Below are positions 3,698-64,000 of a stretch of 64,000 nt of DNA, piece by piece. Position 1 is the first letter of the stretch; every line of letters starts with the position of its first letter. Source of the stretch: Albula goreensis (Eukaryota > Chordata > Actinopteri > Albuliformes > Albulidae); contig CM040747.1 of assembly GCA_022829145.1 (NCBI GenBank), positions 36,472,052 through 36,536,051 of the forward strand, read 5' to 3'. A program made the translations under genes and the position numbers. The notes under the pieces are model-generated. The model worked only from the letters and a program-made list of their open reading frames with translations. It searched no databases and had not been told where the DNA came from.

Positions 3698-3808
3698 CTT
3701 GGATCATCTGTGAATCCCCCTCTGAAGTTGAGAGGGTAACCCATTGACCCGTGACTATTCACTGACATACTGCTGGGTACATGTGACCATGCTGTCTCCA
3801 CCTGGACC
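3698..3808 (-). CDS. NLR N-terminal repeat exon, copy 2 (left gene)
   Basis: This is a 111-nt exon on the minus strand, open in the phase set by the first exon. It has acag before it and gtaagt after it. The sequence is almost the same as the copy at 4864-4974, with AAT AGT CAC in place of AAC AGT CAC and a few other substitutions. It is symmetric in phase. The roughly 1.16-kb spacing to the previous copy, with conserved intron sequence on both sides, shows that the whole exon-plus-intron block was duplicated. Confidence 0.75.
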
Positions 3809-4863: not shown

Positions 4864-4974
4864 CTTGGATCATCTGTGAATCCCCCTCTGAAGTTGAGAG
4901 GGTAACCCATTGACCCGTGACTGTTCACTGACATACTGCTGGGTACACGTGACCATGCTGTCTCCACCTGGACC
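4864..4974 (-). CDS. NLR N-terminal repeat exon, copy 1 (left gene)
   Basis: This is a 111-nt exon with an acceptor at 4975-4978 (acag) and a donor gtaatt. It begins by completing an Arg codon and ends with AG, so it is symmetric: any number of copies can be included or skipped without a frame change. The peptide runs VQVETAWSRVPSSMSVNSHG, then SMGYPLNF and ends at DDP. Short exons of this pattern (Pro/Ser, xSMSVxS, SM, then an acidic end) are the N-terminal peptide repeats of fish NLR-C proteins. It is open throughout. The donor is gtaatt rather than the usual gtaagt of its sister copies, which may weaken it. Confidence 0.75.
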
Positions 4975-5607
4975 CTGTGATCAGAGCAGGGAGACAGAGC
5001 TTCCAGTTAACCTCATCCACTTACTGCAGGTCCAACTCACCGCACGTGGAGACAGAGCTTCCAGTTAACCTCATCCTCTTACTGCAGCTCTAACTCACTG
5101 CACATGGAGACAGAGCTTCCAGTTAACCTCATCCTCTTACTGCAGCTCTAACTCACAGCACATAGAGAAAGAGCTTCCATTTAACCTCATCCTCTTTGTG
5201 CAGCTCTAACTCACTGCAAATGGAGACAGAGCTTCCAGTTAACCTCATCCTCTTACTGCAGCTCTAACTCACAGCACATGGAGACAGAGTTTCCAGTTAA
5301 CCTCATCCTCTTACTGCAGCTCTAACTCACAGCACATGGAGAAAGGGCTTCCAGTTAACCTCATCCAATTACTGCAGCTCTAACTCACAGCACATGGAAT
5401 CAGAGCTTCCAGTTAACCTCATCCTCTTACTGCAGGTCTAACTCCCTGCACATGGAGACAGAGCTTCCAGTTAACCTCATCCTCTTACTGCAGCTCTAAC
5501 TCCCTGCACATGGAGACAGAGCTTCCAGTTAACCTCATCCTCTTACTGCAGCTCTAACTCATTTGTAATGTTTTAATTAAAGTACAATCTGTTCCACGTA
5601 TTCATAC

Positions 5608-28729: not shown

Positions 28730-29800
28730 TATGCTGATGTTAACCTTGATGATCCATTTTATAAAATGGGTGTTAGCCTTGATAATCCATTTTATAAGGT
28801 CTGGTAGAATAAGTATTAGTTTTTATAATATATTTTTATCAGTATCCTAGCATGGATGTTAGCCTTGGTAATCCATTTTTGAGGTCTGGTAGAATAAGCA
28901 TTAGCTTTTATAATATATTTTAGTCAGTACCCTAGCATGGGTGTTAGCCTTGATAATCCATTTTAAAAGGACTGGTAGAATAACCATATGCTTTTATAAT
29001 ATATTTTAGTCAGTATCCTAGCATGGGTGTTAGCCTTGATAATCCATTTTAAAAGGACTGGTAGAATAATCATATGCTTTTATAATATATTTTAGTCAGT
29101 ATCCTAGCATGGATGTTAGCCTTGATAATCCATTTTAAAAGGTCTGGTAGAGTAAGCATTTCCTTTTATAATATATTTTAGTCAGTATACTAGCATGGAT
29201 GTTAGCCTTGATAATCCATTTTAAAAGGTCTGGTAGAGTAAGCATAAGCTTTTATAATATATTTTAGTCAGTACCCTAGCATGGATGTTAGCCTTGATAA
29301 TCCATTTTAAAAGGTCTGGTAGAGTAAGCATTTCCTTTTATAATATATTTTAGTCAGTACCCTAGCATGGATGTTAGCCTTGATAATCCATTTTAAAAGG
29401 TCTGGTAGAATAAGCATAAGCTTTTATAATATATTTTAGTCAGTACCCTAGCATGGATGGTAGCCTTGATAATCCATTTTAAAAGGTCTGGTAGAATAAG
29501 CATATGCTTTTATAATATATTTTCGTCAGTATCCTAGCATGGATGTTAGCCTTGATAATCCATTTTGAAAGGTCTGGTAGAATAAGCATATGCTTTTATA
29601 ATATATTTTAGTCAGTATCCTAGCATGGATGTTAGCCTTGATAATCCATTTTAAAAGGTCTGGTAGAATAAGCATATGCTTTTATAATATATTTTAGTCA
29701 GTATCCTAGCATGGATGTTAGCCTTGATAATCCATTTTAAAAGGTCTGGTAGAGTAAGCATTAGCTTTTATAATATATTTTATTCAGTATCCTAGCATGG
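28730..29800 (+). repeat. 86-bp minisatellite, copy A
   Basis: About a dozen units with landmarks gcatggatgttagccttgat, aatccattttaaaaggtctg and ttttataatatattttagtc. The period is about 86 bp (for example 29111 to 29197). Degenerate units extend back to about 28540. Confidence 0.9.
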
Positions 29801-30392
29801 ACATTTGACTGATGTGCCCTGTGTATGGCAGAACGACAAGCAATGCATCATCAAACACTCTCTTGGACACGTAACCAAGTCTCTGTGGTTTTTAATGTTA
29901 TACACATGTTGTGCTAATCTAGTCCTGATTGTGTTCCCTGTCCCACCTACATATTTAATGCCACAGTAACTACATTGATTCATAGCTTATTGTGTTAACT
30001 GAATTTGTCTGTTTGATTATGTATGTCATGTTTGTACTGTTGGTCTTTACTGCACTGGCTTGTGTGTTAAATACCAGGCCTTGTGTGGGTACAGTGTTGA
30101 TTTCTGGGAATTTGCTTCTTACCAGATGGTCTTTGAGATTTTTTTAATAACTGAGATGATTCTGTAGTCCTGAAGCAGGTCTGTGATTCCCAGGATCCTG
30201 ATCAGGTTCTGTCGAGTAAGTGGTGATGAGCAGAATGATTTTCCTTGTGTCTGTTGTTTTGTGGTCAGAAAGGTTTTCCTGGCCTGTCTGAGGAATGATG
30301 TGGAAAACCCTCTTGGTTTCAATGCTTTGAAATGTTTTTGTGGCTTCTTCAATATATCTAGTCTGTATGCAGATCCTGTGGAACTTGAGCAA
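29792..30392 (-). mobile_element. Penelope-like retroelement, GIY-YIG end fragment
   Basis: On the minus strand 29983-29792 reads NQCSYCGIKYVGGTGNTIRT, then RLAQHVYNIKNHRD. That is the Cys-pair, YVG-x-T and R-x-x-x-H pattern of the GIY-YIG endonuclease at the end of Penelope-like elements. The stretch to 30392 has further frame pieces on the same strand. It is a truncated fossil; no reverse transcriptase is seen. Confidence 0.5.
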
Positions 30393-35819: not shown

Positions 35820-36030
35820 CATTGATATTAACCTTGATGATCCATTTTATAGAATGGGTTTTAGCCTTGATAATCCATTTTATGAGGTCTGGTAGAGTAA
35901 GCATTAGCTTTTATAATATATTTTAGTCAGTATCCTAGCATGGGTGTTAGCCTTGATAATCCATTTTATGAGGTCTGGTAGAAAAAGCTTTAGCTTTTAT
36001 AATATATTTTAGTCAGTATCCTAGCATGGA
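35820..36030 (+). repeat. 86-bp minisatellite, copy B (about 2 units)
   Basis: Same unit as 28730-29800 with about two recognisable full copies and degenerate ones before them (from about 35640). Confidence 0.85.
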
Positions 36031-36059
36031 TGTTTGACTGATGTGCCCTGTGTATGGCA

Positions 36060-39156: not shown

Positions 39157-42100
39157 TTGGAAGCTCTGTCTCCATGTGCTGTGAGTTGCAGCTGCAAAAA
39201 GAGGATGACGTTAACCGGAAGCTCTATCTCCATGTGCTGTGAGTTAGAGATGCAGTAAGAGGATGAGGTTAACCGGAAGCTCTGTCTCCATGTGCTGTGA
39301 GTTAGACCTGCAGTGAGAGGATGAGGTTAACTGGAAGCTCTGTCTCCATGTGCTGTGAGTTAGACCTGCAGTGAGAGGATGAGGTTAACTGGAAGCTCTA
39401 TGTCCATGTGATGTGTGTCAGACCTGCAGTAAGAGGATGAGGTTAACCGGCAGCTCTGTCTCCATGTGCTGTGAGTTAAAGCTGCAGTTAGAGTATGAGG
39501 TTAACTGGAAGCTCTGTCTTCATGTGCTGTGAATTAGAGCTGCAGTGATAAGATGAGGTTAACTGGAAGCTCTGTCTCCATGTGATGTGAGTAGGAGCTG
39601 CAGTAAGAGGATGAGGTTAACTGGAAGCTCTGTCTCCATGGGCTGTGAGTTAGAGCTGCAGTAATAGTATGAGGTTAACTGGAAGCTCTGTCTCCATGTA
39701 CTGTGAGTTAGAGCTGCCATTAGATGATGAGGTTCACTGGAAGGTCCGTCTCCGTGTGATGTGAGTTAGAGCTGCAGTGAGAATATGAAGTTAACTGGAA
39801 GCTCTGTCTCCATGTGATGTGGTATAGAGCTGCAGTAACAGAATGAGGTTAACTGGAAGCTCTGTCTCCATGTGCTGTGAGTTAGAGCTGCAGTAAGAGG
39901 ATGAGGTTAACTGGAAGCTCTGTCTCCATGTGCTGTGAGTTAGAGCTGCCATTAGATGATGAGGTTAACTGGAAGCTCTGTCTCCATGTGATGTGAGTTA
40001 GAGCTGCAGTAACAGAATGAGGTTAACTGGAAGCTCTGTCTTCGTGTGCTGTGAGTCAGAGCTGCAGGAAGAGGATGAGGTAAACCGGAAGCTCTGTCTC
40101 CATGTGCTGTGAGTTAGAGCTGCAGTGAGAGGATGAGGTTAAGTGGAAGCTCTGTCTCCATGTGCTGTGAGTTAGAGCTACATTAAGAGGATGAGGTTAA
40201 GTGGAAGCTCTGTCTCCATGTGCTGTGAGTTAGAGCTGCAGTAAGAGGATGAGGTGAACTGGAAGCTCTGTCTCCATGTGCTGTGAGTTAGAGCTAACAT
40301 TAGATGATGAGGTTAACTGGAAGCTCTGTCTCCATGTGATGTGAGTTAGAGCTGCAGTAACAGAATGAGGTTAACTGGAAGCTCTGTCTCCATGTGCTGT
40401 GAGTTAGAGCTGCAGTGTGAAGACGAGGTTAACTGGAAGCTCTGTCTCCACGTGCTGTGAGTTAGAGCTGCAGTAAGAGAATGAGGTGAACTGGAAGCTC
40501 TGTCTCCATGTGCTGTGAGTTAGAGCTGCAGTAAGAGGATGAGGTGAACTGGAAGCTCTGTCTCCATGTGCTGTGAGTTAGAGCTGCAGTAAGAGGATGA
40601 GGTGAACTGGAAGCTCTGTCTCCATGTGCTGTGAGTTAGAGCTAACATTAGATGATGAGGTTAACTGGAAGCTCTGTCTCCATGTGCTGTGAGTTAGAGC
40701 TGCAGTAACAGAATGAGGTTAACTGGAAGCTCTGTCTACACGTTCTGTGAGTTAGAGATGCAGTAAGAGGATGAGGTTAACCGGAAGCTCTGTCTCCATG
40801 TGCTGTGAGTTAGAGCTGCAGTAAGAGAATGAGGTGAACTGGAAGCTCTGTCTCCATGTGCTGTGAGTTAGAGCTAACATTAGATGATGAGGTTAACTGG
40901 AAGCTCTGTCTCCATGTGATGTGAGTTAGAGCTGCATTAACAGAATGAGGATAACTGGAAGCTCTGTCTCCATGTGCTGTGAGTTTGAGCTGCCATTAGA
41001 TGATGAGGTTAACTGGAAGCTTTGTCTCCATGTGCTGTGAGTTAGAGCTGCAGTGTGAAGACGAGGTTAACTGGAAGCTCTGTCTCCATGTGCTGTGAGT
41101 TAGAGCTGCAGTAAGAGGATGAGGTTAACTGGAAGCTCTGTCTCCACGTTCTGTGAGTTAGAGATGCAGTAAGAGGATGAGGTTAACCGGAAGCTCTGTC
41201 TCCATGTGCTATGAGTTAGAGCTGCTGTGAGAGGATGAGGTTAACTGGAAGCTCTGTCTCCATGTGATGTGTTGTAGAGCTGTAGTGACAGGATGAGGTT
41301 AACTGGACGCTCTGTCTCCATGTGATGTGAGTAAGAGCTGCAGTAAGAGGATGAGTTTAACCGGCAGCTCTGTCTCCACGTGCTGTGAGTTAAAGCTGCA
41401 GTAAGGGGATGAGGTTAAGTGGAAGCTCTGTCTTCGTGTGCTGTGAGTTAGAGCTGCCATTAGATGATGAGGTTCACTGGAAGCTCTGTCTTCATGTGCT
41501 GTGAATTAGAGCTGCAGTGAGAAGATGAGGTTAACTGGAAGCTCTGTCTCCATGTGATGTGAGTAAGAGCTGCAGTAAGAGGATGAGGTTAACTGGAAGC
41601 TCTGTCTCCATGTGCAGTGAGTTAGACCTGCAGTAAGAGTATGAGGATAACTGGAAGCTCTGTCTTCATGTGCTGTGAATTAGAGCTGCAGTGAGAAGTG
41701 AGGTTAACTGGAAGCTCTGTCTTCGTGTGCTGTGAGTCAGAGCTGCAGTAAGAGGATGAGGTAAACCGGAAGCTCTGTCTCCATGTGCTCAGAGTTAGAG
41801 CTGCAGTGAGAGGATGAGGTTAAGTGGAAGCTCTGTCTCCATGTGCTGTGAGTTAGAGCTACATTAAGATGATGAGATTAACTGGAAGCTCTGTCTCCAT
41901 GTGCTGTGAGTTAGAGCTTCAGTCAGAGGATGAGGTTAACTGGAAGCTCTGTCTCCATGTGCTGTGAGTTAGAGCTGCCATTACATTATGAGGTTAACTG
42001 GAAGCTCTGTCTCCATCTGATGTGAGTTAGAGCTGCAGTGAGAAGATGATATTAATTGGAAGCTCTGTCTCCATGTGATGTGAGTTAGAGCTGCAGTAAC

Positions 42101-45100
42101 AGCATGAGGTTAACTGGAAGCTCTGTCTCCACGTTCTGTGACTTAGAGCTGCAGTAAGAGGATGAGGTTAACTGGAAGCTCTGTCTTCATGTACTGTCAG
42201 TTAGAGCTGCAGTGAGAGAATGAAGTGAACTGGAAGCTCTCTCTCCATGTGCTGTGAGTTACAGCTGTTGTAAGAGGATGAGGTTAACCGGAAGCTCTGT
42301 CTCCATGTGCTGTGAGTTAGAGCTGCAGAAAGAGGATGAGATTAACTGGAAGCTCTGTCTCCATGTGCTGTGAGTTAGAGCTGAAGAATGGGGATGAGGA
42401 TAACCAGAAGCTCTGTTTCCATGTGCTGTGAGTGAGACCTGCAGTGGGAGGATGAGGTTAACTGGAAGCTCTGCTCCATGTACTGTGAGTTAGTGGTGCA
42501 TTAAGAGTATGTGGTTAACTGGAATCTCTGTCTCCATGTACTGTGAGTTAGAGCTGCAGGAAGAGGATGAGGTTAACTGGAATCTCTGTCTCCATGTGCT
42601 GTGAGTCAGAGCTGCAGTGAGAGGATGAGGTGAAGTGGAAGCTCTGTCTCCATGTGCTGTGAGTTAGAGCTGCAGTAAGAGGATGAGGTTAACTGGAAGC
42701 TCTGTCTCCATGTGCCGTGAGTTAGAACTGCAGTAAGAGTATGAGGTTAACTGGCAGCTCTGTTTCCATGTGCTATGAGTGAGAGCTTTAGTAAGAGGAT
42801 GAGGTTAACTGGAAGCTCTTTCTCCATGTGCTGTGAGTTAGAGCTGCAGTGAGAGGATGAGGTTAAGTGGAAGCTCTGTCTCCATGTGCTGTGAGTTAGA
42901 GCTACATTAAGATGATGAGATTAACTGGAAGCTCTGTCTCCATGTGCTGTGAGTTAGAGCTTCAGTCAGAGGATGAGGTTAACTGGAAGCTCTGTCTCCA
43001 TGTGCTGTGAGTTAGAGCTGCCATTACATTATGAGGTTAACTGGAAGCTCTGTCTCCATCTGATGTGAGTTAGAGCTGCAGTGAGAAGATGATATGAATT
43101 GGAAGCTCTGTCTCCATGTGATGTGAGTTAGAGCTGCAGTAACAGAATGAGGTTAACTGGAAGCTCTGTCTCCACGTTCTGTGACTTAGAGCTGCAGTAA
43201 GAGGATGAGGTTAACTGGAAGCTCTGTCTTCATGTACTGTCAGTTAGAGCTGCAGTGAGAGAATGAAGTGAACTGGAAGCTCTCTCTCCATGTGCTGTGA
43301 GTTACAGCTGTTGTAAGAGGATGAGGTTAACCGAAGCTCTGTCTCCATGTGCTGTGAGTTAGAGCTGAAGAATTGGGATGAGGATAACCAGAAGCTCTGT
43401 TTCCATGTGCTGTGAGTGAGACCTGCAGTGGGAGGATGAGGTTAACTGGAAGCTCTGCTCCATGTGCTGTGAGTTAGTGGTGCATTAAGAGTATGTGGTA
43501 ACTGGAATCTCTGTCTCCATGTGCTGTGAGTCAGAGCTGCAGTGAGAGGATGAGGTGAAGTGGAAGCTCTGTCTCCATGTGCTGTGAGTTAGAGCTGCAG
43601 TAAGAGGATGAGGTTAACTGGAAGCTCTGTCTCCATGTGCCGTGAGTTAGAACTGCAGTAAGAGTATGAGGTTAAGTGGAAGCTCTGTCTCCATGTGCTG
43701 TGAGTTAGAGCTGCAGTAAGAGGATGAGGTTAACCAGCAGCTTTGTCTCCATGTGCTGCGGGTTAGAGCTGCAGGACGAGAATGAGGTTAACTGGAAGCT
43801 CTGTCTCCATGGGCTGTCAGTTAGAGCTGCAGTAAGAGTGTGAGGTTAACTGGAAGCTCTGTCTCCATGTACTGTGAGTTAGAGCTGCCAGTAGATGATG
43901 AGGTTAACTGGAAGCTCTGTCTCCATGTGCTGTGAGTTCGAGCTGCATTGAGAGGATGAGTGAATTGGAAGCTCTATGTCCATGTGATGTCTGTCAGAGC
44001 TGCAGTTAGAGGATGAGGTTCACTGGAAGCTCTGTCTCCATGTGCTGTGAGTTAGAGCTGCAGTAAGAGGATGAGGTTAACTGGAAGCTCTGTCTTCATG
44101 TACTGTCAGTTAGAGCTGCAGTGAGAGAATGAAGTGAACTGGAAGCTCTCTCCATGTGTTGTGAGTTACAGCTGTTGTAAGAGGATGAGGTTAACCGGAA
44201 GCTCTGTCTCCATGTGCTGTGAGTTAGAGCTGCAGTAAGAGGATGATGTTAACCGAAAGCTCTGTCTCCCAGTACTGTGAGTTAGAGCTGCAGCGAGAGG
44301 ATGAGATTAACTGGAAGCTCTGTCTCCATGTGCTGTGAGTTAGAGCTGAAGAATGGGGATGAGGATAACCAGAAGCACTGTTTCCATGTGCTGTGAGTGA
44401 GACCTGCAGTGGGAGGATGAGGTTAAGTGGAAGCTCTGCTCCATGTGCTGTGAGTTAGCGGTGCATTAAGAGTATGTGGTTAACTGGAATCTCTGTCTCC
44501 ATGAACTGTGAGTTAGAGCTGCAGGAAGAGGATGAGGTTAACTGGAATCTCTGTCTCCATGTGCTGTGAGTTAGAGCTGCAGTAAGAGGATGAGGTTAAC
44601 TGGAAGCTCTGTCTCCATGTGCCGTGAGTTAGAACTGCAGTAAGAGTATGAGGTTAAGTGGAAGCTCTGTCTCCATGTGCTGTGAGTTAGAGCTGCAGTA
44701 AGAGGATGAGGTTAACCAGCAGCTTTGTCTCCATGTGCTGCGAGTTAGAGCTGCAGGACGAGAATGAGGTTAACTGGAAGCTCTGTCTTCATGGGCTGTC
44801 AGTTAGAGCTGCAGTAAGAGTATGAGGTTAACTGGAAGCTCTGTCTCCATGTACTGTGAGTTAGAGCAGCCATTAGATGATGAGGTTAACTGGAAGCTCT
44901 GTGTCAGTGTGATGTGAGTTAGAGCTGCAGTGAGAAATTGATGTTAATTGGAAGCTCTGTCTCCATGTGATGTGAGTGAGAGCTGCAGTAACGGAATGAG
45001 GTTAACTGGAAGCTCTGTCTCCATGTTCTATGACTTAGAGCTGCAGTAAGAGGATGAGGTTAACTGGAAGCTGTGTCTCCATGTGTCTCCATGTGCTGTG

Positions 45101-48100
45101 AGTTAGAGCTGCAATAAGAGGATGAGGTTAACCGGAAGCTCTGTGTCCATGTGCTGTGAGTTAGAGCTGCAGTAAGAGGATGAGGTTAACCGGAAGCTCT
45201 GTCTCCATGTCCTGAGAGTGAGAGCTGCAGTGAGAGGATGAGGTTAACTGGAAGCTCTGCTCCATGTACTGTGAGTTAGTGGTGCATTAAGAGTATGTGG
45301 TTAATTGGAATCTCTGTATCCATGTACTGTGAGTTAGAGCTGCAGGAAGAGGATGAGGTTAACTGGAATCTCTGTCTCCATGTGCTGTGAGTCAGAGCTG
45401 CAGTAAGAGTATGAGGTTAAGTGGAAGCTCTGTCTCCATGTGCTGTGAGTTAGAGCTGCAGTAAGAGGATGAGGTTAACCAGCAGCTTTGTCTCCATGTG
45501 CTGCGAGTTAGAGCTGCAGGACGAGAATGAGGTTAACTGGAAGCTCTGTCTCCATGGCCTGTCAGTTAGAGCTGCAGTAAGAGTGTGAGGTTAACTGGAA
45601 GCTCTGTCTCCATGTACTGTGAGTTAGAGCTGCCAGTAGATGATGAGGTTAACCAGAAGCTCTGTTTCCATGTGCTGTGAGTGAGACCTGCAGTGGGAGG
45701 ATGAGGTTAACTGGAAGCTCTGCTCCATGTGCTGTGAGTTAGTGGTGCATTAAGAGTATGTGGTTAACTGGAATCTCTGTCTCCATGTGCTGTGAGTCAG
45801 AGCTGCAGTTAGAGGATGAGGTTCACTGGAAGCTCTGTCTCCATGTGTTGTGAGTTAGAGCTGCAGTAAGAGGATGAGGTTAACTGGAAGCTCTGTCTTC
45901 ATGTACTGTCAGTTAGAGCTGCAGTGAGAGAATGAAGTGAACTGGAAGCTCTCTCTCCATGTGTTGTGAGTTACAGCTGTTGTAAGAGGATGAGGTTAAC
46001 CGGAAGCTCTGTCTCCATGTGCTGTGAGTTAGAGCTGCAGTAAGAGGATGATGTTAACCGAAAGCTCTGTCTCCCAGTACTGTGAGTTAGAGCTGCAGTG
46101 AGAGGATGAGATTAACTGGAAGCTCTGTCTCCATGTGCTGTGAGTTAGAGCTGAAGAATGGGGATGAGGATAACCAGAAGCACTGTTTCCATGTGCTGTG
46201 AGTGAGACCTGCAGTGGGAGGATGAGGTTAAGTGGAAGCTCTGCTCCATGTGCTGTGAGTTAGCGGTGCATTAAGAGTATGTGGTTAACTGGAATCTCTG
46301 TCTCCATGAACTGTGAGTTAGAGCTGCAGGAAGAGGATGAGGTTAACTGGAATCTCTGTCTCCATGTGCTGTGAGTCAGAGCTGCAGTGAGAGGATGAGG
46401 TGAAGTGGAAGCTCTGTCTCCATGTGCTGTGAGTTAGAGCTGCAGTAAGAGGATGAGGTTAACTGGAAGCTCTGTCTCCATGTGCTGTGAGTTAGAACTG
46501 CAGTAAGAGTATGAGGTTAAGTGGAAGCTCTGTCTCCATGTGCTGTGAGTTAGAGCTGCAGTAAGAGGATGAGGTTAACCAGCAGCTTTGTCTCCATGTG
46601 CTGCGAGTTAGAGCTGCAGGACGAGAATGAGGTTAACTGGAAGCTCTGTCTCCATGGGCTGTCAGTTAGAGCTGCAGTAAGAGTGTGAGGTTAACTGGAA
46701 GCTCTGTCTCCATGTACTGTGAGTTAGAGCAGCCATTAGATGATGAGGTTAACTGGAAGCTCTGTGTCAGTGTGATGTGAGTTAGAGCTGCAGTGAGAAG
46801 ATGATGTTAATTGGAAGCTCTGTCTCCATGTGATGTGAGTGAGAGCTGCAGTAACGGAATGAGGTTAACTGGAAGCTCTGTCTCCATGTTCTGTGACTTA
46901 GAGCTGCAGTAAGAGGATGAGGTTAACTGGAAGCTGTGTCTCCATGTGTCTCCATGTGCTGTGAGTTAGAGCTGCAATAAGAGGATGAGGTTAACCGGAA
47001 GCTCTGTGTCCATGTGCTGTGAGTTAGAGCTGCAGTAAGAGGATGAGGTTAACCGGAAGCTCTGTCTCCATGTCCTGAGAGTGAGAGCTGCAGTGAGAGG
47101 ATGAGGTTAAGTGGAAGCTCTGTCTCCATGTGCTGTGAGTTAGAGCTGCAGTAAGAGGATGAGGTAAAGCAGCAGATTTGTCTCCATGTGCTGTGAGTTA
47201 GAGCTGCAGTAACAGGATGAGGTTAACTGAAGGCTCTGTCTCCATGTGCTGTGAGTTAGAGCTTCAGTCAGAGGATGAGGTTAACTGGAAGCTCTGTCTC
47301 CATGTGCTGTGAGTTAGAGCTGCCATTACATTATGAGGTTAACTGGAAGCTCTGTCTCCATCTGATGTGAGTTAGAGCTGCAGTGAGAAGATGATATTAA
47401 TTGGAAGCTCTGTCTCCATGTGATGTGAGTTAGAGCTGCAGTAACAGAATGAGATTAACTGGAAGCTCTGTCTCCACGTTCTGTGACTTAGAGCTGCAGT
47501 AAGAGGATGAGGTTAACTGGAAGCTCTGTCTTCATGTACTGTCAGTTAGAGCTGCAGTGAGAGAATGAAGTGAACTGGAAGCTCTCTCTCCATGTGCTGT
47601 GAGTTACAGCTGTTGTAAGAGGATGAGGTTAACCGGAAGCTCTGTCTCCATGTGCTGTGAGTTAGAGCTGAAGAATTGGGATGAGGATAACCAGAAGCTC
47701 TGTTTCCATGTGCTGTGAGTGAGACCTGCAGTGGGAGGATGAGGTTAACTGGAAGCTCTGCTCCATGTGCTGTGAGTTAGTGGTGCATTAAGAGTATGTG
47801 GTTAACTGGAATCTCTGTCTCCATGTGCTGTGAGTCAGAGCTGCAGTGAGAGGATGAGGTGAAGTGGAAGCTCTGTCTCCATGTGCTGTGAGTTAGAGCT
47901 GCAGTAAGAGGATGAGGTTAACTGGAAGCTCTGTCTCCATGTGCCGTGAGTTAGAACTGCAGTAAGAGTATGAGGTTAAGTGGAAGCTCTGTCTCCATGT
48001 GCTGTGAGTTAGAGCTGCAGTAAGAGGATGAGGTTAACCAGCAGCTTTGTCTCCATGTGCTGCGAGTTAGAGCTGCAGGACGAGAATGAGGTTAACTGGA

Positions 48101-51100
48101 AGCTCTGTCTCCATGGGCTGTCAGTTAGAGCTGCAGTAAGAGTGTGAGGTTAACTGGAAGCTCTGTCTCCATGTACTGTGAGTTAGAGCTGCCAGTAGAT
48201 GATGAGGTTAACTGGAAGCTCTGTGTCAGTGTGATGTGAGTTAGAGCTGCAGTGAGAAGATGATGTTAATTGGAAGCTCTGTCTCCATGTGATGTGAGTG
48301 AGAGCTGCAGTAACGGAATGAGGTTAACTGGAAGCTCTGTCTCCATGTTCTGTGACTTAGAGCTGCAGTAAGAGGATGAGGTTAACTGGAAGCTGTGTCT
48401 CCATGTGTCTCCATGTGCTGTGAGTTAGAGCTGCAATAAGAGGATGAGGTTAACCGGAAGCTCTGTGTCCATGTGCTGTGAGTTAGAGCTGCAGTAAGAG
48501 GATGAGGTTAACCGGAAGCTCTGTCTCCATGTCCTGAGAGTGAGAGCTGCAGTGAGAGGATGAGGTTAAGTGGAAGCTCTGTCTCCATGTGCTGTGAGTT
48601 AGAGCTGCAGTAAGAGGATGAGGTAAAGCAGCAGATTTGTCTCCATGTGCTGTGAGTTAGAGCTGCAGTGACAGGATGAGGTTAACTGAAGGCTCTGTCT
48701 CCATGTGCTGTGAGTTAGAGCTGCAGTGACAGGATGAGGTTAACTGGAGGCTTTGTCTCCATTTGCTGTGAGTTAGAGCTGCAGTGAGAGGATGAGGTTA
48801 ACTGGAAGCTCTGTCTCCTTGTGCTGTGAGATAGAGTTGCAGAAAGAGGATGAGGTTAACTGGCAGCTCTGTTTCCATGTGCTATGAGTGAGAGCTTTAG
48901 TAAGAGGATGAGGTTAACTGGAAGCTCTTTCTCCATGTGCTGTGAGTTAGAGCTGCAGTGAGAGGATGAGGTTAAGTGGAAGCTCTGTCTCCATGTGCTG
49001 TGAGTTAGAGCTACATTAAGATGATGAGATTAACTGGAAGCTCTGTCTCCATGTGCTGTGAGTTAGAGCTTCAGTCAGAGGATGAGGTTAAGTGGAATCT
49101 CTGTCTCCATGTGCTGTGAGTCAGAGCTGCAGTGAGAGGATGAGGTGAAGTGGAAGCTCTGTCTCCATGTGCTGTGAGTTAGAGCTGCAGTAAGAGGATG
49201 AGGTTAACTGGAAGCTCTGTCTCCATGTGCCGTGAGTTAGAACTGCAGTAAGAGTATGAGGTTAAGTGGAAGCTCTGTCTCCATGTGCTGTGAGTTAGAG
49301 CTGCAGTAAGAGGATGAGGTTAACCAGCAGCTTTGTCTCCATGTGCTGCGAGTTAGAGCTGCAGGACGAGAATGAGGTTAACTGGAAGCTCTGTCTCCAT
49401 GGGCTGTCAGTTAGAGCTGCAGTAAGAGTGTGAGGTTAACTGGAAGCTCCGTCTCCATGTACTGTGAGTTAGAGCTGCCAGTAGATGATGAGGTTAACTG
49501 GAAGCTCTGTCTCCATGTGCTGTGAGTTCGAGCTGCATTGAGAGGATGAGGTGAACTGGAAGCTCTATGTCCATGTGATGTCTGTCAGAGCTGCAGTTAG
49601 AGGATGAGGTTCACTGGAAGCTCTGTCTCCATGTGCTGTGAGTTAGAGCTGCAGTAAGAGGATGAGGTTAACTGGAAGCTCTGTCTTCATGTACTGTCAG
49701 TTAGAGCTGCAGTGAGAGAATGAAGTGAACTGGAAGCTCTCTCTCCATGTGTTGTGAGTTACAGCTGTTGTAAGAGGATGAGGTTAACCGGAAGCTCTGT
49801 CTCCATGTGCTGTGAGTTTGAGCTGCAGTAAGAGGATGATGTTAACCGAAAGCTCTGTCTCCCAGTACTGTGAGTTAGAACTGCAGCGAGAGGATGAGAT
49901 TAACTGGAAGCTCTGTCTCCATGTGCTGTGAGTTAGAGCTGAAGAATGGGGATGAGGATAACCAGAAGCACTGTTTCCATGTGCTGTGAGTGAGACCTGC
50001 AGTGGGAGGATGAGGTTAAGTGGAAGCTCTGCTCAATGTGCTGTGAGTTAGCGGTGCATTAAGAGTATGTGGTTAACTGGAATCTCTGTCTCCATGAACT
50101 GTGAGTTAGAGCTGCAGGAAGAGGATGAGGTTAACTGGAATCTCTGTCTCCATGTGCTGTGAGTTAGAGCTGCAGTAAGAGGATGAGGTTAACTGGAAGC
50201 TCTGTCTCCATGTGCCGTGAGTTAGAACTGCAGTAAGAGTATGAGGTTAAGTGGAAGCTCTGTCTCCATGTGCTGTGAGTTAGAGCTGCAGTAAGAGGAT
50301 GAGGTTAACCAGCAGCTTTGTCTCCATGTGCTGCGAGTTAGAGCTGCAGGACGAGAATGAGGTTAACTGGAAGCTCTGTCTCCATGGGCTGTCAGTTAGA
50401 GCTGCAGTAAGAGTATGAGGTTAACTGGAAGCTCTGTCTCCATGTACTGTGAGTTAGAGCAGCCATTAGATGATGAGGTTAACTGGAAGCTCTGTGTCAG
50501 TGTGATGTGAGTTAGAGCTGCAGTGAGAAATTGATGTTAATTGGAAGCTCTGTCTCCATGTGATGTGAGTGAGAGCTGCAGTAACGGAATGAGGTTAACT
50601 GGAAGCTCTGTCTCCATGTTCTGTGACTTAGAGCTGCAGTAAGAGGATGAGGTTAACTGGAAGCTGTGTCTCCATGTGTCTCCATGTGCTGTGAGTTAGA
50701 GCTGCAATAAGAGGATGAGGTTAACCGGAAGCTCTGTGTCCATGTGCTGTGAGTTAGAGCTGCAGTAAGAGGATGAGGTTAACCGGAAGCTCTGTCTCCA
50801 TGTCCTGAGAGTGAGAGCTGCAGTGAGAGGATGAGGTTAAGTGGAAGCTCTGTCTCCATGTGCTGTGAGTTAGAGCTGCAGTAAGAGGATGAGGTTAACT
50901 GAAGGCTCTGTCTCCATGTGCTGTGAGTTAGAGCTGCAGTGACAGGATGAGGTTAACTGGAGGCTTTGTCTCCATTTGCTGTGAGTTAGAGCTGCAGTGA
51001 GAGGATGAGGTTAGCTGGAAGCTCTCTCTCCATGTGCTGTGAGATAGAGCTGCAGAAAGAGGATGAGGTTAACTGGAAGCTCTGTTTCCATGTGCTACGA

Positions 51101-51840
51101 GTGAGAGCTGCAGTGAGAGGATGAGGTTAACTGGAAGCTCTTTCTCCATGTGCTGTGAGTTAGCGCTTTAGTAAGAGGATGAGGTTAACTGGAAGCTCTG
51201 TCTCCATGTGCTGTGAGTTAGAGCTGCAGTGAGAGGATGAGGTTAAGTGGAAGCTCTGTCTCCATGTGCTGTGAGTTAGAGCTACAGTAAAACGATGAGA
51301 TTAATTGGACGCTCTGTCTCCATGTGCTGTGAGTTAGAGCTGCAGTAAGAGGATGAGGTTAACCAGCAGCTTTGTCTCCATGTGCTGTGAGTTAGAGCTC
51401 CAGTGAGAGGATGAGATTAACTGGAAGTTCTGTCTCCATGTGCTGTGAGTTTGAGCTGCAGTAAGAGGATGAGGTTAACTGGAAGCTCTGTCTCCACGTG
51501 CTGTGAGTTAGAGCTGCAGTGAGAGGATGAGATTAACTGGAAGCTCTGTCTCCATGTGCTGTGAGTTAGAGCTGCAGTAAGGGGATGGTGTTAACCGGAA
51601 GCTCTGTCTCCATGTGCTGTGATTTAGAGCTGCAATAAGAGGATGAGGTTAACTGGAAGCTCTGTCTCCATGTGCTGTGAGTTCGCGCTGCATTGAGAGG
51701 ATGAGGTTAACTGGAAGCTCTATGTCCATGTGATGTCTGTCAGAGCTGCAGTTAGAGGATGAGGTTCACTGGAAGCTCTGTCTCCATGTGCTGTGAGTTA
51801 GAACTCCAGTAAGAGGATGGGGTTAACTGGAAGCTCTGTC
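39157..51840 (+). repeat. 58-bp minisatellite, main array (12.7 kb)
   Basis: About 220 tandem copies of the same 58-bp monomer as in the left gene, here on the plus strand, filling intron 1. Monomer variants recur in ordered groups: the doubled tccatgtgtctccatgtgct variant appears near 45076, 46938, 48399 and 50668 with the same neighbours, and the gctgcgagttagagctgcag variant recurs seven or more times. Blocks of many monomers have therefore been copied as units (higher-order structure). Nearly every monomer carries ctgtgagttag (GTGAGT) and many carry gcagtaagag (GTAAG). There is no open coding frame, since 58 is not a multiple of 3. Confidence 0.95.
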
Positions 51841-51858
51841 TTCATGTTATGTTCACAG

Positions 51859-51969
51859 GGTCCAGGTGGAGAGAGCAGGGTCACCTGTACCCTGCTGTCT
51901 GTCGATGAAGAGTGACGAGTCAATGAGTCCCCCTATCAACCTCAAAGCGTTATCCACAGGAGATCCAAG
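51859..51969 (+). CDS. NLR N-terminal repeat exon a (right gene)
   Basis: A 111-nt symmetric exon after gttcacag and before gtgagt. With the split Arg codon it reads VQVERAGSPVPCCLSMKSDE, then SMSPPINLKALSTGDP and AG of the next split codon. It has the S-P-V-P, S-M-K-S-D and SMxxP pattern of fish NLR N-terminal peptide repeats and is open and in phase with exon 1. Its acceptor region is itself a diverged minisatellite monomer (ctctgtcttcatg, then ttcacag). Confidence 0.82.
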
Positions 51970-52560
51970 GTGAGTAAACAGGATATTATTTACACGACTG
52001 TTTCATTGTACCTCACTCTCACTGGACACAGTCTGGTGTAGGTGGGGCAGGGGCACAGCTGGGGGGGTTGAAGGCTGCACTGGGCCTGACAGGGGGTCCA
52101 AGGCTCAAGCCTTGAAAAACACTTAGTTTTACTGCATGACAAACATTCACTGAATGTGTTGTGATGTTCTAATTTTACACATTTTAAACTGAAAACTTTG
52201 TTAGACTGTTGATCATGTGCCCCATTTTTCCGCAGATGGTTTGATCTGAGACAAGTTGTGCACACATTTGACTAAAGCTGACATAAAGTGGTACAATTTT
52301 GAAGCTTCACCAATTTCAGTTGACATCAAAATCAGATTTTTCCATGATGCAAAAATGCATTTCAAAGCTCAAAAGAGGAAGTAAATAAATGATCCAGACA
52401 GGGGTAAATACTGGCCACTGTTGTTTAGACAGAATGGGGCTCCACAAGGGAGCAGCAAAATAATGACAGAAATTGCTTTCTTTCCATTTCGAGGCAGGAG
52501 TGAGAAAAGAACTTGGCCATGGTATCAACGAAACAGTAAATTTATAATAAACCTGTAAGT
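51970..52560. other. Conserved unique intron part after repeat exon a
   Basis: About 590 bp of non-repeated intron. Its first 180 bp match the intron part after exon c and, in reverse, those of the left gene. The recurring minus-strand frame LRLEPWTPCQAQCSLQPP in all of them is a shadow of this conserved intron, not a gene. Confidence 0.6.
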
Positions 52561-52564
52561 TAAT

Positions 52565-54895
52565 ACATTTTGAATCCCTATCTCGATGAACTGTGAGTTA
52601 GAGCTGCAGTAAGAGGATGAGGTTAACTGGAAGCTCTGTCTCCATGTGCTGTGAGTTAGAGCTGCAGTGAGAGAATGAGGTTAACTGGAAGCTCTGTCTC
52701 CATGTGCTGTGAGTTAGAGCTGCACTGAGAGGATGACGTTAACCAGCAGCTTTGTCTCCATGGGCTGGGAGTTAGAGCTGCCATTAGATGATGAGGTTAA
52801 CTGGAAGCTCTGTCTCCATGTGATGTGAGTTAGAGCTGCAGTAACAGAATGAGGTTAACTGGAAGCTCTGTCTCCATGTGCTGTGAGTTAGAGCTGCAGA
52901 AAGAGGATGAGGTTAACTGGAAGCTCTGTCTCCATGGGCTGTGAGTTAGAGCTGCAGGAGGAGAATGAGGTTAACTGGAAGCTCTGTCTCCATGGGCTGT
53001 GAGTTAGAGCTGCAGTAAGAGTATGAGGTTAGCTGGAAGCTCTGTGTCCATGTACTGTGAGTTAGAGCTGCCATTAGATGATGAGGTTCACTGGAAGCTC
53101 CGTCTCCGTGTGATGTGAGTTAGAGCTGTAGTGAGAAGATAAAGATAACTGGAAGCTCTATGTCCATGTGATGTCTGTCAGAGCTGCAGTTAGAGGATGA
53201 GGTTCACTGGAAGCTCTGTGTCCATGTGCTGTGAGTTAGAGCTGCAATAAGAGGATGAGGTTAAGTGGAAGCTCTGTCTCCATGTGCTGTGAGTTAGAGC
53301 TGCAGTGAGAGGATGAGGTTCACCGGAAGCTCTGTCTCCTGTGCTGAGTGTTAGAGCTGCAGTGAGAGGATGAGGTTAAGTGGAAGCTCTGTCTCCATGT
53401 GCTGTGAGTTAGAGCTACAGTAAGAGGATGAGATTAACTGGACGTTCTGTCTCCATGTGCTGTGAGTTAGAGCTGCAGTAAGAGGATGAGGTTAACCAGC
53501 AGCTTTGTCTCCATGTGCTGTGAGTTAGAGCTGCAGTGAGAGGATGAGATTAACTGGAAGCTATGTCTCCATGTGCTGTGAGTTTGAGCTGAAGTAAGAG
53601 GATGAGGTTAACTGGAAGCTCTGTCTCCATGTGCTGTGAGTTAGAGCTGCAGTGAGAGGATGAGATTAACTGGAAGCTCTGTCTCCATGTGCTGTGAGTT
53701 TGAGCTGCAGTAAGAGGATGGTGTTAACCGGAAGCTCTGTCTCCATGTGCTGTGATTTAGAGCTGCAATAAGAGGATGAGGTTAACTGGAAGCTCTGTGT
53801 CCATGTGCTGTGAGTTAGAGCAGCAGTAAGAGGATGAAGTTAACCGGAAGCTCTGTCTGCATGTGCTGTGAGTTAGAGCTGCAGTGAGAGGACGAGGTTA
53901 ACTGGAATCTCTGTCTCCATGTGCTGTGAGTTAGAGCTGCAGTAAGAGGATGAGTTTAACTGGAAGCTCTGTCTCCATGTTCTGTGAGTTAGAACTGCAG
54001 TAACAGGATGAGGTTAACTGGAAGCTCTGTCTCCATGTACTGTGAGTTAGAGCTGCCATTAGATGATGAGGTTAACTGGAATCTCTGTCTCCATGTGCTG
54101 TGAATTTGCGCTGCAGTAACAGGATGAGGTTAACTGGAAGCTCTGTCTCTATGTGATGTGAGTTAGAACTGCAGTAAAACGATGAGATTAACTGGAAGCT
54201 CTGTCTCCATGTGCTTAGAGTTAGAGCTACAGTGAGAGGATGAGGTTAAGTGGAAGCTCTGTCTCCATGTGCTGTGAGTTAGAGCTACAGTAAGACGATG
54301 AGATTAACTGGAAGCTCTGTCTCCATGTACTGTGAGGTAGAGCTGCAATAAAAGGATGAGGTTAACCGGAAGCTCTGTCTGCATGTACTCTGAGTTAGAG
54401 CTGCAGTTAGAGGATGAGGTTAACTGGAGGCTCTGTCTCCATGTGCTGTGAGTTAGAGCTGCAGTGAGAGGATGAGCTGAACTGGAATCTCTGTCTCCAT
54501 GTGCTGTGAGTGAGAGCTGCGGTGAGAGGATGAGGTTAACTGGAAGCTCTGTCTCCATGCGCTGTGAGTTCGCGCTGCAGTAAGAGTATGAGGTTAACTG
54601 GAAGCTCTGTCTCCATGTGCTGTGAGTTAGAGCTGCAGTGAGAAGACGAGGTTAACTGGAAGCTCTGTCTCCATGTGCTGTGAGTTAGAGCTGGAGTGAG
54701 AGGATGAGGTTAACTTGAAGCTCTGTCTCCATGTGCTGTGAGTTAGAGCTGCAGTAAGAGAATGAGGTTTACTGGAAGCTCTGTCTCCATGTGCTGTGAG
54801 TTAGAGCTGCAGTAAGAGGATGAGGTTAACTGGAAGCTCTGTCTCCATGTGTTGTGAGTTAGAGCTGCAGTGAGAGGATGAGGTTAACTTGAAGC
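52565..54895 (+). repeat. 58-bp minisatellite, second array
   Basis: About 40 monomers in the intron between repeat exons a and b. Same unit as the main array. Confidence 0.93.
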
Positions 54896-54919
54896 CCTTT
54901 CTCCTCATGCTTTTCACAG

Positions 54920-55030: not shown

Positions 55031-55399
55031 GTAAAAACCTTCATAATTATACTGCTGTTTCTTTATTCCTCATTCTTACAGGCTACGGTCTGGTGTAGGT
55101 AGGGTGGGGACACAGTTCCTCCGTACTTAAAAAAAGTTTAATTTAATTTTTTTCGAAAGGAATTCATCTGAATCTGTGTTCATGCTGTGAACTGTGCATA
55201 AAGGACCAAACGTTTTCATGACACTCTTCATTGTACTCAGCAGTCTTTAACACATTTCTGATAAAATTAAGGCTTAATTCCGAAAAAGTTGTGCAAAATG
55301 CAGAACCTTTGCTTATCAACAGATTGAAAGAAGAGATAAAGAAATGTTCTACATTGTGGATATCACTTATTTAACTGCATAATAAAATGAGATATTCAC

Positions 55400-55810
55400 T
55401 CCATGTGCTGTTTGTTAGAGCTGCAGTAAGAGGATGAGGTTAACTGGAAGCTCTATCTCCATGTGCCCAGAGTTTGAGCTGCAGTGAGAGGATGAGGTTA
55501 AGTGGAAGCTCTGTGTCCATGTGCTGTGAGTTAGAGCTGCAGTTAGAAGATGAGGTTCACTGGAAGCTCTGTCTCCATGTGCTGTGAGTTAGAGCTGCAG
55601 CAAGAGGATGAGGTTAACTGGAAGCTCTGTCTCCATGTGCTGTGAGTTAGAGCTGCAGCAAGAGGATGAGGTTAACTGGAAGCTCTGTCTCCATGTGCTG
55701 TGAGTTAGAGCTGCAGTAAGAGAATGAAGTTAACTGGAAGCTCTGTCTCCATGTGCTGTGAGTTAGAGCTGCAATAAGAGGATGAGGTTAACCGGAAGCT
55801 CTGTCTTCAT
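55400..55810 (+). repeat. 58-bp minisatellite, third array
   Basis: About seven monomers. The last one merges into the acceptor of exon c at 55811-55823. Confidence 0.92.
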
Positions 55811-55823
55811 GTTTTGTTCACAG

Positions 55824-56254: not shown

Positions 56255-56455
56255 TAAAGGTTAGAGTTGCAGTAAGAGGATGAGGTTAACTGGAAGCTCT
56301 GTCTCCATGTGCTGTGAGTTCAAGCTGCAGTAAGAGGGTGAGGTTGACTGGAAGCTCTGTGTCCATGTGCTGTGAGTTAGATCTGCAGTAAGAGGATGAG
56401 GTTAACTGGAAGCTCTGTCTCCATGTGCTGTGAGTTAGAGCTGCAGTGAGAAGAT
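56255..56455 (+). repeat. 58-bp minisatellite, fourth array
   Basis: Three to four monomers after the conserved intron part of exon c. Confidence 0.88.
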
Positions 56456-56635
56456 GAGATTAAAATGGAAATTAGTTCCACCAAACTTTCTCATTAAATG
56501 AACAACCAAGTTTATTGTTGAGAAGGAATATGCTTGGTTTGACAGTTGATTATGCTTTGAATTGTTTGGCAGTTTTCAACACTATTCACCAAATTGTCTG
56601 TAAAAACAAATATACAATGTCTGTTTTGACTTTTT

Positions 56636-60340: not shown

Positions 60341-60428
60341 GGTCCAGCAATCAGCAGAGTCCAGCTGTCTGGAACAGAAGAGTCCAGAGAGGAGAGAGCA
60401 GTGTATGGATGTAAACCCCACAAAAAAG
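60341..60428 (+). CDS. NLR linker exon before the PYRIN exon
   Basis: After a good acceptor (ctctttgcag) an 88-nt exon completes the split Arg codon and reads VQQSAESSCLEQKSPERREQ, then CMDVNPTKK, ending in phase 0 at gtgtga. It starts with the same VQ and an ESSCL piece like the repeat exons but ends differently, as a last N-terminal repeat would. Its phase fits both exon c before it and the PYRIN exon after it. The donor gtgtga is weak. Confidence 0.65.
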
Positions 60429-60834: not shown

Positions 60835-61225
60835 AGCGCAGGGTTTAGAGTGCAAGGGACACACGCACAGGGTGTAAGGTGCATGGAGCACACTTGCAGG
60901 GTGTAGAATGCAGGGAACACACTCACAGGGTGTAGGATGCAGGGAACACTCTCACAGGGTGTAATGAACACACTCACAGGGTGTAGAGTGCAGGGAACAC
61001 CCAGGGTGTATGGTGCAGGGAACACACAGGGTGTAGGGTGTAAGGAACACACTCACAGGGTGTAGGGTGTAAGGAACACACTCACAGGGTGTAGGGTGGG
61101 GGGAACACACTCACAGGGTGTAGGGTGCAGGGAACACACTCAGGGTGTAGGGTGGGGGGAACACACTCACAGGGTGTAGGGTGCAGGGAACACACTCACA
61201 GGGTGTAGGTTGCAGGGAACACACT
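60835..61225. repeat. 29-bp minisatellite
   Basis: About a dozen copies, several shortened, of a unit near 29 bp containing cacagggtgtagggtgcagg and gaacacactc, in the intron before the PYRIN exon. Confidence 0.9.
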
Positions 61226-61580
61226 CCTCGTTTGGAGCACAACACAAGAATAAACACAGAGCTGGAATGTGGTTTCAGCCAATCATCCAGGACCAGATTC
61301 ATCCCTTTTATCATAAGCATTTTAAATGTTACTTCAGCCTTTTCTGGGGCATAAAAAATTCCTGGGACTGAAAAATGGTGAGCATTTGGGAACCTGAGAA
61401 TCTGCAGCGGACATGGAGAGCACAGTTTGTCTTGCATAATGATATGCAGCAGTCTATTTATCCAGATTCACAAAACAATTCAATTACTCTCAGGGAAAAC
61501 ATGATTAATCTGAACTCCTGCCTCTACAAAGTCATCAATCAAAAGCAAAAGCTGAACTTCAAAGAACTGGAGTGAATTAT

Positions 61581-61920
61581 CACACATGTGCTTATTTCAG
61601 TCATTCTGATACAGCACTCTTCTTCATGTGCTTATTTCAGTCTCTCTGATGCAGCACAACTCTTCATGTGTTTATTTCAGTAACTCTGATACAGCACACC
61701 TCTTCATGTGTTTATTTCAGTCTCTCTGATACAGCACACCTCTTCATGTGCTTATTTCATTCACCCTAAGACAGCACACCTTATCATGTGTTTATTTCAG
61801 TCTCTCTGATACAGCATACCTCTTCATGTGCTTATTTCAGTCACTCTGATACAGCACACCTCTTCATGTTTTTATTTCAGTCTCTCTGATACAGCACTCC
61901 TCTTCATGTGTTTATTTCAG
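61581..61920 (+). repeat. Nine copies of a 3' splice site at exact 40-bp spacing
   Basis: Each unit reads about tcttcatgtgtttatttcag followed by tctctctgatacagcacacc. The ag (or its mutated form) ends at 61600, 61640, 61680, 61720, 61760 (mutated to at), 61800, 61840, 61880 and 61920. The last is the acceptor of the PYRIN exon. Each unit also contains ctgat, a fair branch-point match, for the acceptor that follows. The first bases after each ag copy the first bases of the real exon (TCTCTC), so the repeat arose from the intron-exon junction itself. Confidence 0.95.
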
Positions 61921-62161
61921 TCTCTCCAGTGTACTCTGATGAAGTTGAAGAAGGAGGAGTTGAAACAGTTTCAGAGCCATCTGAATCAGTATTACCCAGA
62001 ATGCACTGAGAGACAACAGGAGGACCATGAGGCCCTGCACATCGTTGAGAAGATGCTGGAGACCTGTGGCAGTGAGAGATCTCTGAAGATCACACTCCAT
62101 ATCCTGAGGAAAATGAAGCAGAAGGATCTCGCTGACTCACTGGAGAGAGATGAGCAGAAGA
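61921..62161 (+). CDS. NLR PYRIN-domain exon
   Basis: A 241-nt exon, phase 0 in and phase 1 out, donor gtaaga. It encodes about 80 residues: SLQCTLMKLKKEELKQFQSH, LNQYYPECTERQQEDHEALH, IVEKMLETCGSERSLKITLH and ILRKMKQKDLADSLERDEQK. The pattern of helices (L-x-x-L-x-x-x-E-L-K-x-F, the charged middle, and ILRKMKQKDLADSL as the last helix) is that of the PYRIN (death-fold) domain found before FISNA-NACHT in fish NLR-C proteins. PYRIN domains bind other PYRIN domains, for example in ASC, to build inflammasomes. Its acceptor is the last of nine repeated ones. Confidence 0.88.
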
Positions 62162-63295: not shown

Positions 63296-64000
63296 AAAAA
63301 CTCTCAAGAGCCCAACATACACTGAAATCTGATCTGAAGAAGAAGTTTGAATGCATATTTGAAGGTTTGGTACAGCAGGGCCACCCAACCCTCCTCAATG
63401 AGATCTATACAGAGCTCTACATCACAGAAGGGGGAGGTGGGGGGGTCAATAATGAACATGAGGTCAGACAGATTGAGGCAGCATCCAAGAGACAAACCAC
63501 ACAGGAGACTGCAATCCTCTGCAATGACATCTTTAAACCTTTACCGGGACAGGAGAAACACATCAGAACTTTGCTTACAAAGGGCATCGCTGGCATTGGG
63601 AAAACTGTCTCTGTGCAGAAGTTCATTCTGGACTGGGCAGAAGGAAAAGCCAATCAGGATATTAATTTAATCTTCACTCTTCCTTTCCGAGACCTGAACT
63701 TAAAGAAGGAAAGAGAATTCAGTCTGATACAACTCCTCCAGCACTACTTTCCACAGCTGAAAGAGATTGAAAGTGTTGAACATGATGAAGTCAAAGTTGT
63801 GTTCATCTTTGATGGTCTGGATGAGTGTCGACTTCCTCTAGATTTCCAGAACAATGAGATCTGCTGTGATGTAACAGAGTCAGCATCAGTGGACGTGCTG
63901 CTGACCAACCTCATTAAGGGGAATCTGCTTCCCTCTGCTCTCCTCTGGATCACCTCCCGACCAGCAGCAGCCAATCAGATCCCTCCTGAGTGTGTCGACC
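63296..64000 (+). CDS. NLR FISNA-NACHT exon (partial, runs off the right edge)
   Basis: The exon opens in phase 1, as required by the PYRIN exon, and stays open for 705 nt to the window end. The first 70 or so residues ([45 protein letters not shown]) are the FISNA domain specific to fish NLRs. NACHT follows: Walker A GIAGIGKT at 63583-63606 with [18 protein letters not shown], then [11 protein letters not shown], and Walker [13 protein letters not shown] at about 63797-63832, then [20 protein letters not shown] and [14 protein letters not shown] (sensor 1 region). NACHT is the nucleotide-binding oligomerisation motor of cytosolic innate sensors. All key motifs are intact. Leucine-rich repeats and any B30.2 domain would lie beyond the window. 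Confidence 0.95.

Follow-up and report, generated by a model that had tools for sequence, protein, structure and literature searches.

The nearest precedent that we have found for the repeat described here is the human ABCA7 VNTR. The passages of PMC5954066 cited in this work describe a 25-bp unit in intron 18 that includes a donor site and gives rise to out-of-frame isoforms sensitive to decay, and they link the length of the VNTR to the skipping of exon 19 and to lower expression. The array at our locus is the mirror image of this system, located at an acceptor and spread through an immune family. As far as those passages go, the two share a minisatellite that abuts an exon, a unit that carries the splice site of that exon and a unit number that varies widely. 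In both, the use of an extra unit shifts the reading frame, with a decay-sensitive product in the case of ABCA7. They differ in that the repeat of PMC5954066, as described there, concerns a donor in one human gene, whereas our array repeats a whole acceptor and is common to a paralogous immune family.

Another intronic minisatellite with an effect on splicing is VNTR6-1 in intron 6 of TERT, which the cited passages of PMC11830802 describe as a structured repeat with a 38-bp unit and 24 to 66.5 copies that alters splicing. It resembles our array in its intronic location and its similar unit size. Unlike the array, it acts from about 3.5 kb upstream of exon 7 via a predicted G-quadruplex, and the same passages hold no description of its unit as a splice site.

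The gene that hosts our array is like those of the zebrafish NLR-B30.2 family, as portrayed in the cited passages of PMC4852459, in its N-terminal exons, in having FISNA and NACHT on one exon and in belonging to a very large family; in zebrafish the PYD is found in group 1. The words ‘minisatellite’ and ‘splice’ are absent from the main text of that paper and its cited passages contain no acceptor repeat, and ‘intron’, ‘tandem repeat’ and ‘satellite’ are absent from the main text of two further papers on fish NLRs (PMC10648357 and PMC12436146). A literature search by title, with subscription papers mostly outside its scope, turned up no acceptor minisatellite described for NLR genes of fish. 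The minisatellite of salmon MHC class II was considered as an analogue and dropped, as it is located in the 3′UTR according to the cited part of PMC2386828.

More generally, the array involves a choice among nearby acceptors, as do the competing 3′ splice sites treated in the cited parts of PMC9225289 and PMC10946897. Those concern pairs of sites or the avoidance of AG, whereas the arrays described here retain intact upstream AGs by the dozen. According to the cited passages of PMC10946897, spurious AG signals in an upstream position are under negative selection. Selection normally removes false acceptors that precede a real one, and here dozens of paralogues carry them. Paralogues with differing numbers of near-identical acceptors form a natural dose series for 3′ splice site choice by the spliceosome, one that could show if the choice is settled by local RNA structure and exon signals. 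The array may also be a source of noise or control in the expression of a large innate-immune family. Errors in the start of the PYRIN exon are likely where it is set by short-read mapping or automatic annotation. With a probability of about two in three, we read the array as a nearly neutral minisatellite that the gene tolerates, with splicing at its last site.

The PYRIN exon and its repeated acceptor

The window, by which we mean the whole 64,000-nucleotide stretch of DNA that was analysed, contains part of a fish-type NLR gene on its forward strand, namely a linker exon, a PYRIN exon and the start of a FISNA-NACHT exon. The linker exon (60341-60428, 88 nt; VQQSAESSCLEQKSPERREQCMDVNPTKK) has the donor AAG/gtgtga and, in the reading frame required by the PYRIN exon, ends in phase 0; of 20 ten-kb paralogue stretches, 19 contain it with three mismatches or fewer. 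The PYRIN-domain exon (61921-62161, 241 nt; Pfam PF02758, E-value 3.1e-15) leads from phase 0 to phase 1. It is followed in frame by the FISNA-NACHT exon (63296-64000; Pfam PF14484 and PF05729, E-values 2.7e-34 for FISNA and 2.3e-27 for NACHT), which continues past the end of the window. A PYRIN exon and then a FISNA-NACHT exon is the arrangement of fish NLR-C or NLR-B30.2 genes, although the window ends inside the NACHT exon, ahead of the place where the LRR and B30.2 exons of such genes would lie.

The acceptor array (61585-61926, forward strand) directly adjoins the PYRIN exon. It consists of head-to-tail copies of a 40-bp unit (TCWCTCTGATACAGCACACCTCTTCATGTGTTTATTTCAG), a size within the range of about 10-100 bp that is typical of minisatellites, and TRF reports 8.6 copies with a period of 40, 87% matches, 0% indels and a score of 516. 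The unit comprises a whole acceptor: TCWCTCTGAT, a spacer and then GTTTATTTCAG. We take TCWCTCTGAT to contain a branch-point-like yUnAy motif, and each full unit holds this motif, a pyrimidine tract and an AG; as in repeats of the ABCA7 kind, the unit includes the canonical splice site of the exon that it adjoins. Counted from the branch-point A, the G of this AG is 31 nt downstream. The AG within ‘ACAG’ ends 5 nt past the branch-point A, which is too near for use in splicing.

The initial annotation of this region, made from the sequence alone, had described an acceptor amplified at 40-bp spacing. This is indeed the case, with a TRF period of 40 and nine acceptor positions that end at 61600 + 40k. 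Eight of these are upstream positions (61599-61880, forward strand), with ends at 61600, 61640, 61680, 61720, 61760, 61800, 61840 and 61880. The ninth belongs to the last unit (61881-61920, forward strand), where CTGAT at 61886-61890 and a pyrimidine tract precede an AG at 61919-61920 that we take as the working acceptor. The annotation had likewise placed the working copy last; we judge its anatomy to be right, with a PYRIN reading frame that is open from 61921, and we infer that the last site is the one used. Its further statement, that AG and ctgat are both kept in eight of nine copies, is correct for AG, which is broken at 61760 (AT). For ctgat it is not: the motif lies upstream of seven of the nine acceptors, and six have both elements. 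The exceptions are the first acceptor, which has no full unit before it, and the unit preceding 61800, which reads CCTAAG. The predicted poison frames are confirmed as well, in that splicing from the phase 0 linker exon to any of the eight upstream positions would run into a stop at codon 1 or codon 3.

The same intron hosts a second, unrelated minisatellite (60839-61226), for which TRF gives a 29-bp unit and 14 copies. Upstream of the NLR gene, a 58-bp satellite has its main block at 39158-54904 (about 271 copies) and further blocks at 2-5561, 55399-55812 and 56260-56463; its units have many matches within the paralogue stretches. An 86-bp tandem repeat occupies two blocks, 28766-29801 (12 copies, 94% matches) and 35850-36034.

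Distribution in the genome and origin

The genome that we searched is the window's own (G000, 932 Mb in 208 contigs). The exact 35-base core of the unit occurs 484 times genome-wide (220 forward, 264 reverse), compared with 0 occurrences of a reversed-pattern control, which excludes chance. Among the matches listed, 24 unit-core places were checked, run ends included, and all lie on the same strand as a PYRIN exon and 1-2834 bases upstream of it. A query composed of array and exon gave at least 40 full-length places among those scored, including the window, on contigs C7, C8 and C58. We read 40 of them (the window, L009-L028 and L029-L047), and in every one the array, of 8 to 41 units, abuts the exon. 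This set is biased toward the array because the query included it, therefore PYRIN exons were also taken by protein match alone.

The protein match scored 150 PYRIN-exon places, 31 of which were hand-picked; these are mostly diverged, and several fragments and one 73% place were left out. In the first 20 diverged exons (56-81% identity, protein match only) repeated units are present in 18. For example, L059 has two units, L064 has an irregular array, and the arrays of L051 and L060 are strongly degenerate, with no intact AG in any of the L051 cores. Exactly one unit-like acceptor precedes the exon of L067 (56% identity), and no unit is present at L066 (58% identity). Two of the next 11 places host an array (L068 and, in damaged form, L078), and the nine distant PYRIN genes, at 43% identity or less, have none. 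Most of the 150 scored places lie in clusters near contig ends (C7 36.3-41.6 Mb, C8 35.9-40.8 Mb and C17 2.2-4.4 Mb).

In a tree of 60 PYRIN exons, with a midpoint root and many weak inner forks, the 58 array-bearing exons form one clade with a support of 98/94. Their arrays range from 2 to 41 units, three of them being degenerate, and about 30 unit cores are already present at L056, the first branch of the clade. Two exons fall outside it, L067 with one unit and L066 with none. An array throughout a clade of 58 exons, with one unit or none in the outgroups, points to one expansion that was copied through the NLR family. The acceptor array is apparently a trait of single origin across this family, and the simplest history would place one expansion of a single acceptor ahead of the radiation of the family. 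In this view the entire 3′ splice site of the PYRIN exon would have become a minisatellite once, from a single acceptor like that still seen at the outgroup locus, and the repeat would have been copied along with its gene through the large NLR family. Units would have been gained and lost, with the last unit staying the working acceptor. A clean single acceptor free of repeat remnants was found at none of the 58 clade loci, which is mildly odd for a pure passenger. The L056 locus (G000:C7:7714764-7716223) is far from the cluster on its contig.

A comparison of copy number among paralogues, as proposed in the initial annotation, gives 2 to 77 units within this one genome. The longest array, at L079 (G000:C5:1251300-1254400), spans 2.95 kb and comprises 77 acceptor cores, each of which has AG; 40 of the spacings between cores are 38 nt and 35 are 40 nt. 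As a result of the 38-nt units, 41 of its 76 upstream sites do not run into a stop within three codons, and an in-frame PYRIN exon is reached from none of the 76. Unit counts carry two qualifications. The strict parser undercounts indel-rich arrays, with one unit at L037, L048 and L064 and none at L051, where the core counts are 19, 9, 5 and 3, respectively; and the counts of L033, L054 and L056 are possibly lower bounds, given the extent of the stretch read.

Evolution of the internal units

For the column tests we used 51 of the 60 loci, those with at least four parsed units, and 695 of their 844 units; the units kept are 40 nt long with at most 10 differences, and the first and last units are excluded. 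Frame and fold counts refer to the same 51 loci. AG is kept at 719 of the 785 internal sites, and 59 of 60 loci have it at the last site, the exception being L063; the contrast is suggestive only (Fisher p 0.08). Over the 695 internal units the non-consensus rate is 4.0% in the AG columns and 2.9% in the spacer, with a difference interval that spans zero. L056 alone could account for as many as 25 of the 66 internal AGs that are lost; the test was therefore repeated without this locus and gave 2.4% versus 2.8%. Leaving out L047 as well, another locus rich in lost AGs, gave 2.0% versus 2.8%, with an interval of -0.017 to 0.002.

Counts of events at the level of loci agree with the absence of extra constraint on the internal AGs. 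A39 has 8 events, against a mean of 8.9 for the seven other A columns, and G40 has 12, against a mean of 14.5 for the four other G columns. At the G8 of the stop there are 13 events; 8 of these are transversions by which the stop is lost and the branch-point pattern preserved. In the L056 array most of the 30 cores have AT at their end and just 5 have AG; the last AG is intact. Within the branch-point motif, T7 and A9 show little variation (0.4% and 1.0%), and this may be a weak hint of constraint; we give it little weight because variation is also low at T35, T37 and A13.

Divergence between units is 6.5% within a locus and 7.2% between loci. This falls between the dS of FISNA (0.058, 15 rows) and that of PYRIN (0.135, 40 rows), and is what near-neutral repeats would be expected to show. 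A search for higher-order repeat structure in the arrays found no lag signal from 1 to 8 units. Judged by these columns, the internal units look like passengers, L056 showing that an array can persist with most of its acceptors dead, and the selective maintenance that would mark a functional decoy or poison element appears to be absent, with no clear excess of constraint. The poison frame is inherited with one ancestral unit, it is not eight separate features.

We rejected the idea that arrays are confined to dead genes. Among 18 classed loci (the window, L015 and L023 are outside the classes), FISNA-NACHT is open for at least 592 codons in nine and stops earlier in the other nine, with mean unit numbers of 16.8 and 21.4, respectively (Mann-Whitney p 0.45). 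Retrocopies were rejected as a fossil record, in that a genome search for the spliced junction returned three matches, all with three mismatches, versus nine control matches.

The initial annotation had offered two accounts of the array, a splice-based brake and neutral slippage. In the first, splicing to decoy acceptors would give a stop-bearing mRNA that decays, and the number of units would tune the output of the NLR. The frames are what such a brake would need: 666 of the 719 intact internal acceptors lead to a stop within three codons, and only 8 reach the PYRIN exon, 3 of them in frame. The array is also retained, sometimes in degenerate form, in all 58 clade members read, section 9 of PMC9225289, as cited, describes a frequent general preference for upstream 3′ sites and the out-of-frame isoforms of the human ABCA7 donor-site VNTR rise on cycloheximide (PMC5954066, cited passages). 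However, the internal AGs evolve as background, with L056 having only five AGs in about 30 units, and the changes at G8 that destroy the stop (8 of 13 events) are undepleted. The stop itself arrived with the founding unit, and at L079 it is missing within three codons of 41 of the 76 upstream sites, even if an in-frame PYRIN exon results from none of them. We regard a brake maintained by selection as unlikely, and the data on the internal AG and stop columns favour the alternative of neutral slippage. Upstream acceptors may have some leaky use, and the array may act as a brake in effect, without selection for one. Another proposal is that the array amplifies the acceptor, with many branch points and pyrimidine tracts that would concentrate U2AF and SF1 and aid inclusion of the PYRIN exon whatever the state of the internal AGs. 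The AG-poor L056 array would still function in this manner, T7 and A9 vary little next to unremarkable AG columns, and skipping of the PYRIN exon (241 nt) would shift the frame. That said, the T columns of the tract change almost as often as T columns elsewhere in the unit (mean of 9.0 versus 10.7 events, column 3 excluded), column rates are very uneven, which weakens the signal at T7 and A9, and most of the junctions are predicted to be folded. We consider an amplifier distinctly unlikely.

The repeat could also serve as a recombination tract, where unequal exchange shuffles N-terminal exons and NACHT exons among paralogues. Copy number is variable, the commonest unit is present in 40 of 46 loci and the paralogues are mosaic, all of which would suit such a role. 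Yet correlations are equally absent between segments that have no array between them, e.g. the PYRIN exon and its downstream intron (r 0.09) or the start and end of FISNA (r 0.05), so the array is not singled out and we find this role most improbable. The idea of a recombination hotspot was dropped after Mantel tests on the window and 20 loci (18-21 per segment), which gave almost no correlation even between neighbouring segments and so could not single out the array. Finally, repeats can be mis-assembled and the arrays reach 3 kb, and the initial annotation had named an assembly artefact as a possible outcome; with arrays of differing unit variants and copy numbers at 58 clade loci, this is hardly credible. 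As an observation on the family, distances in neighbouring segments are almost uncorrelated across the mosaic paralogues (the window and L009-L028), which suggests pervasive exchange.

Probable use of the last acceptor

If the array is a tolerated, nearly neutral minisatellite, as we favour, the upstream copies would be near-neutral passengers, with splicing to almost any of them giving a stop or a shifted frame. The last site would then be the one used, with a hairpin and exon signals deciding the choice, and mis-splicing would be rare enough to be tolerated. The strength of the sites cannot explain the choice, because 153 of the 719 internal acceptors, across 25 loci, are identical to their own last acceptor over the 23-base site.

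One reason for use of the last site may be exon definition, as it alone precedes a real, purine-rich exon of 241 nt with a donor at its end. The purine fraction at positions 10-54 past the AG is 0.63 for last sites and 0.37 for internal sites, and GAA/GGA-type motifs from a hand-chosen list number 4.4 and 0.0, respectively, in the next 60 nt; the penultimate unit is left out of both comparisons. In the window, a purine-rich, enhancer-like stretch read from the sequence (ATGAAGTTGAAGAAGGAGGAG; 61939-61959, forward strand) lies just inside the PYRIN exon, although conservation of this stretch is no proof of an enhancer because it is also coding. The introns upstream are long (1196-4159 nt, n=20). 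In a setting of long introns, according to the cited parts of PMC9225289, exon definition favours those 3′ sites that are nearest across the exon. Section 9 of the same paper, as cited, states that upstream 3′ sites are generally preferred, even when at least 20 nt apart, and that this preference is significantly reduced in long introns. Strict use of the last site is not guaranteed, because of this general preference for upstream sites.

The other reason may be RNA structure. Since the ends of the units are complementary (CUGA with UCAG), most internal junctions fold into a predicted hairpin, UGUGUU/AGCACA plus UCAG/CUGA, in which an AG is paired with the branch-point motif of the unit that follows it. 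By prediction, the last AG alone is not paired with a following branch-point motif. An example of the predicted hairpin, UGUGCU/AGCACA plus UCAG/CUGA, is located at 61827-61858 on the forward strand (-11.0 kcal/mol, z -3.57), and folding of the consensus junction is predicted at -8.6 kcal/mol (z -3.0). The predicted mean for 742 internal junction 40-mers is -7.3 kcal/mol, with 530 at -6 or below and 212 weaker, and that for the 51 last junctions is -2.8 kcal/mol, with just one at -6 or below. In a longer context, the predicted probability that the AG is unpaired is 0.30 for last sites versus 0.12 for internal sites, and it is higher at the last site in 84% of the 51 loci. The penultimate junction of the window gene folds weakly (-2.8), and shielding by a hairpin fails there.

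A hairpin under selection was rejected, with neither covariation nor extra constraint on the stem columns. Covariation is absent from 656 junctions, with 268 of 300 shuffles reaching the observed pairing, and stem columns are no better kept than other non-loop columns (3.0% versus 2.5% changed). Shielding of this kind would be automatic once a unit is duplicated, and it would help to explain why expansion is tolerated. A tunable, self-shielding splice brake common to the NLR family can also be imagined, where hairpins would mask the internal acceptors, an opening of the RNA structure would lead to a stop and to decay, and the number of units would set the damping. We think this very unlikely; if true, temperature, helicase activity or the speed of transcription in infection would unmask upstream sites.

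Recursive (ratchet) splice sites were rejected, with 0 instances of YAG/GTRAG in the arrays of 51 loci. At L063, where the exon starts at 1201, the last acceptor reads CGG for CAG while the upstream units retain AG, and the start of this exon (TCTCTCCAG) makes an in-frame acceptor available 9 nt further in.
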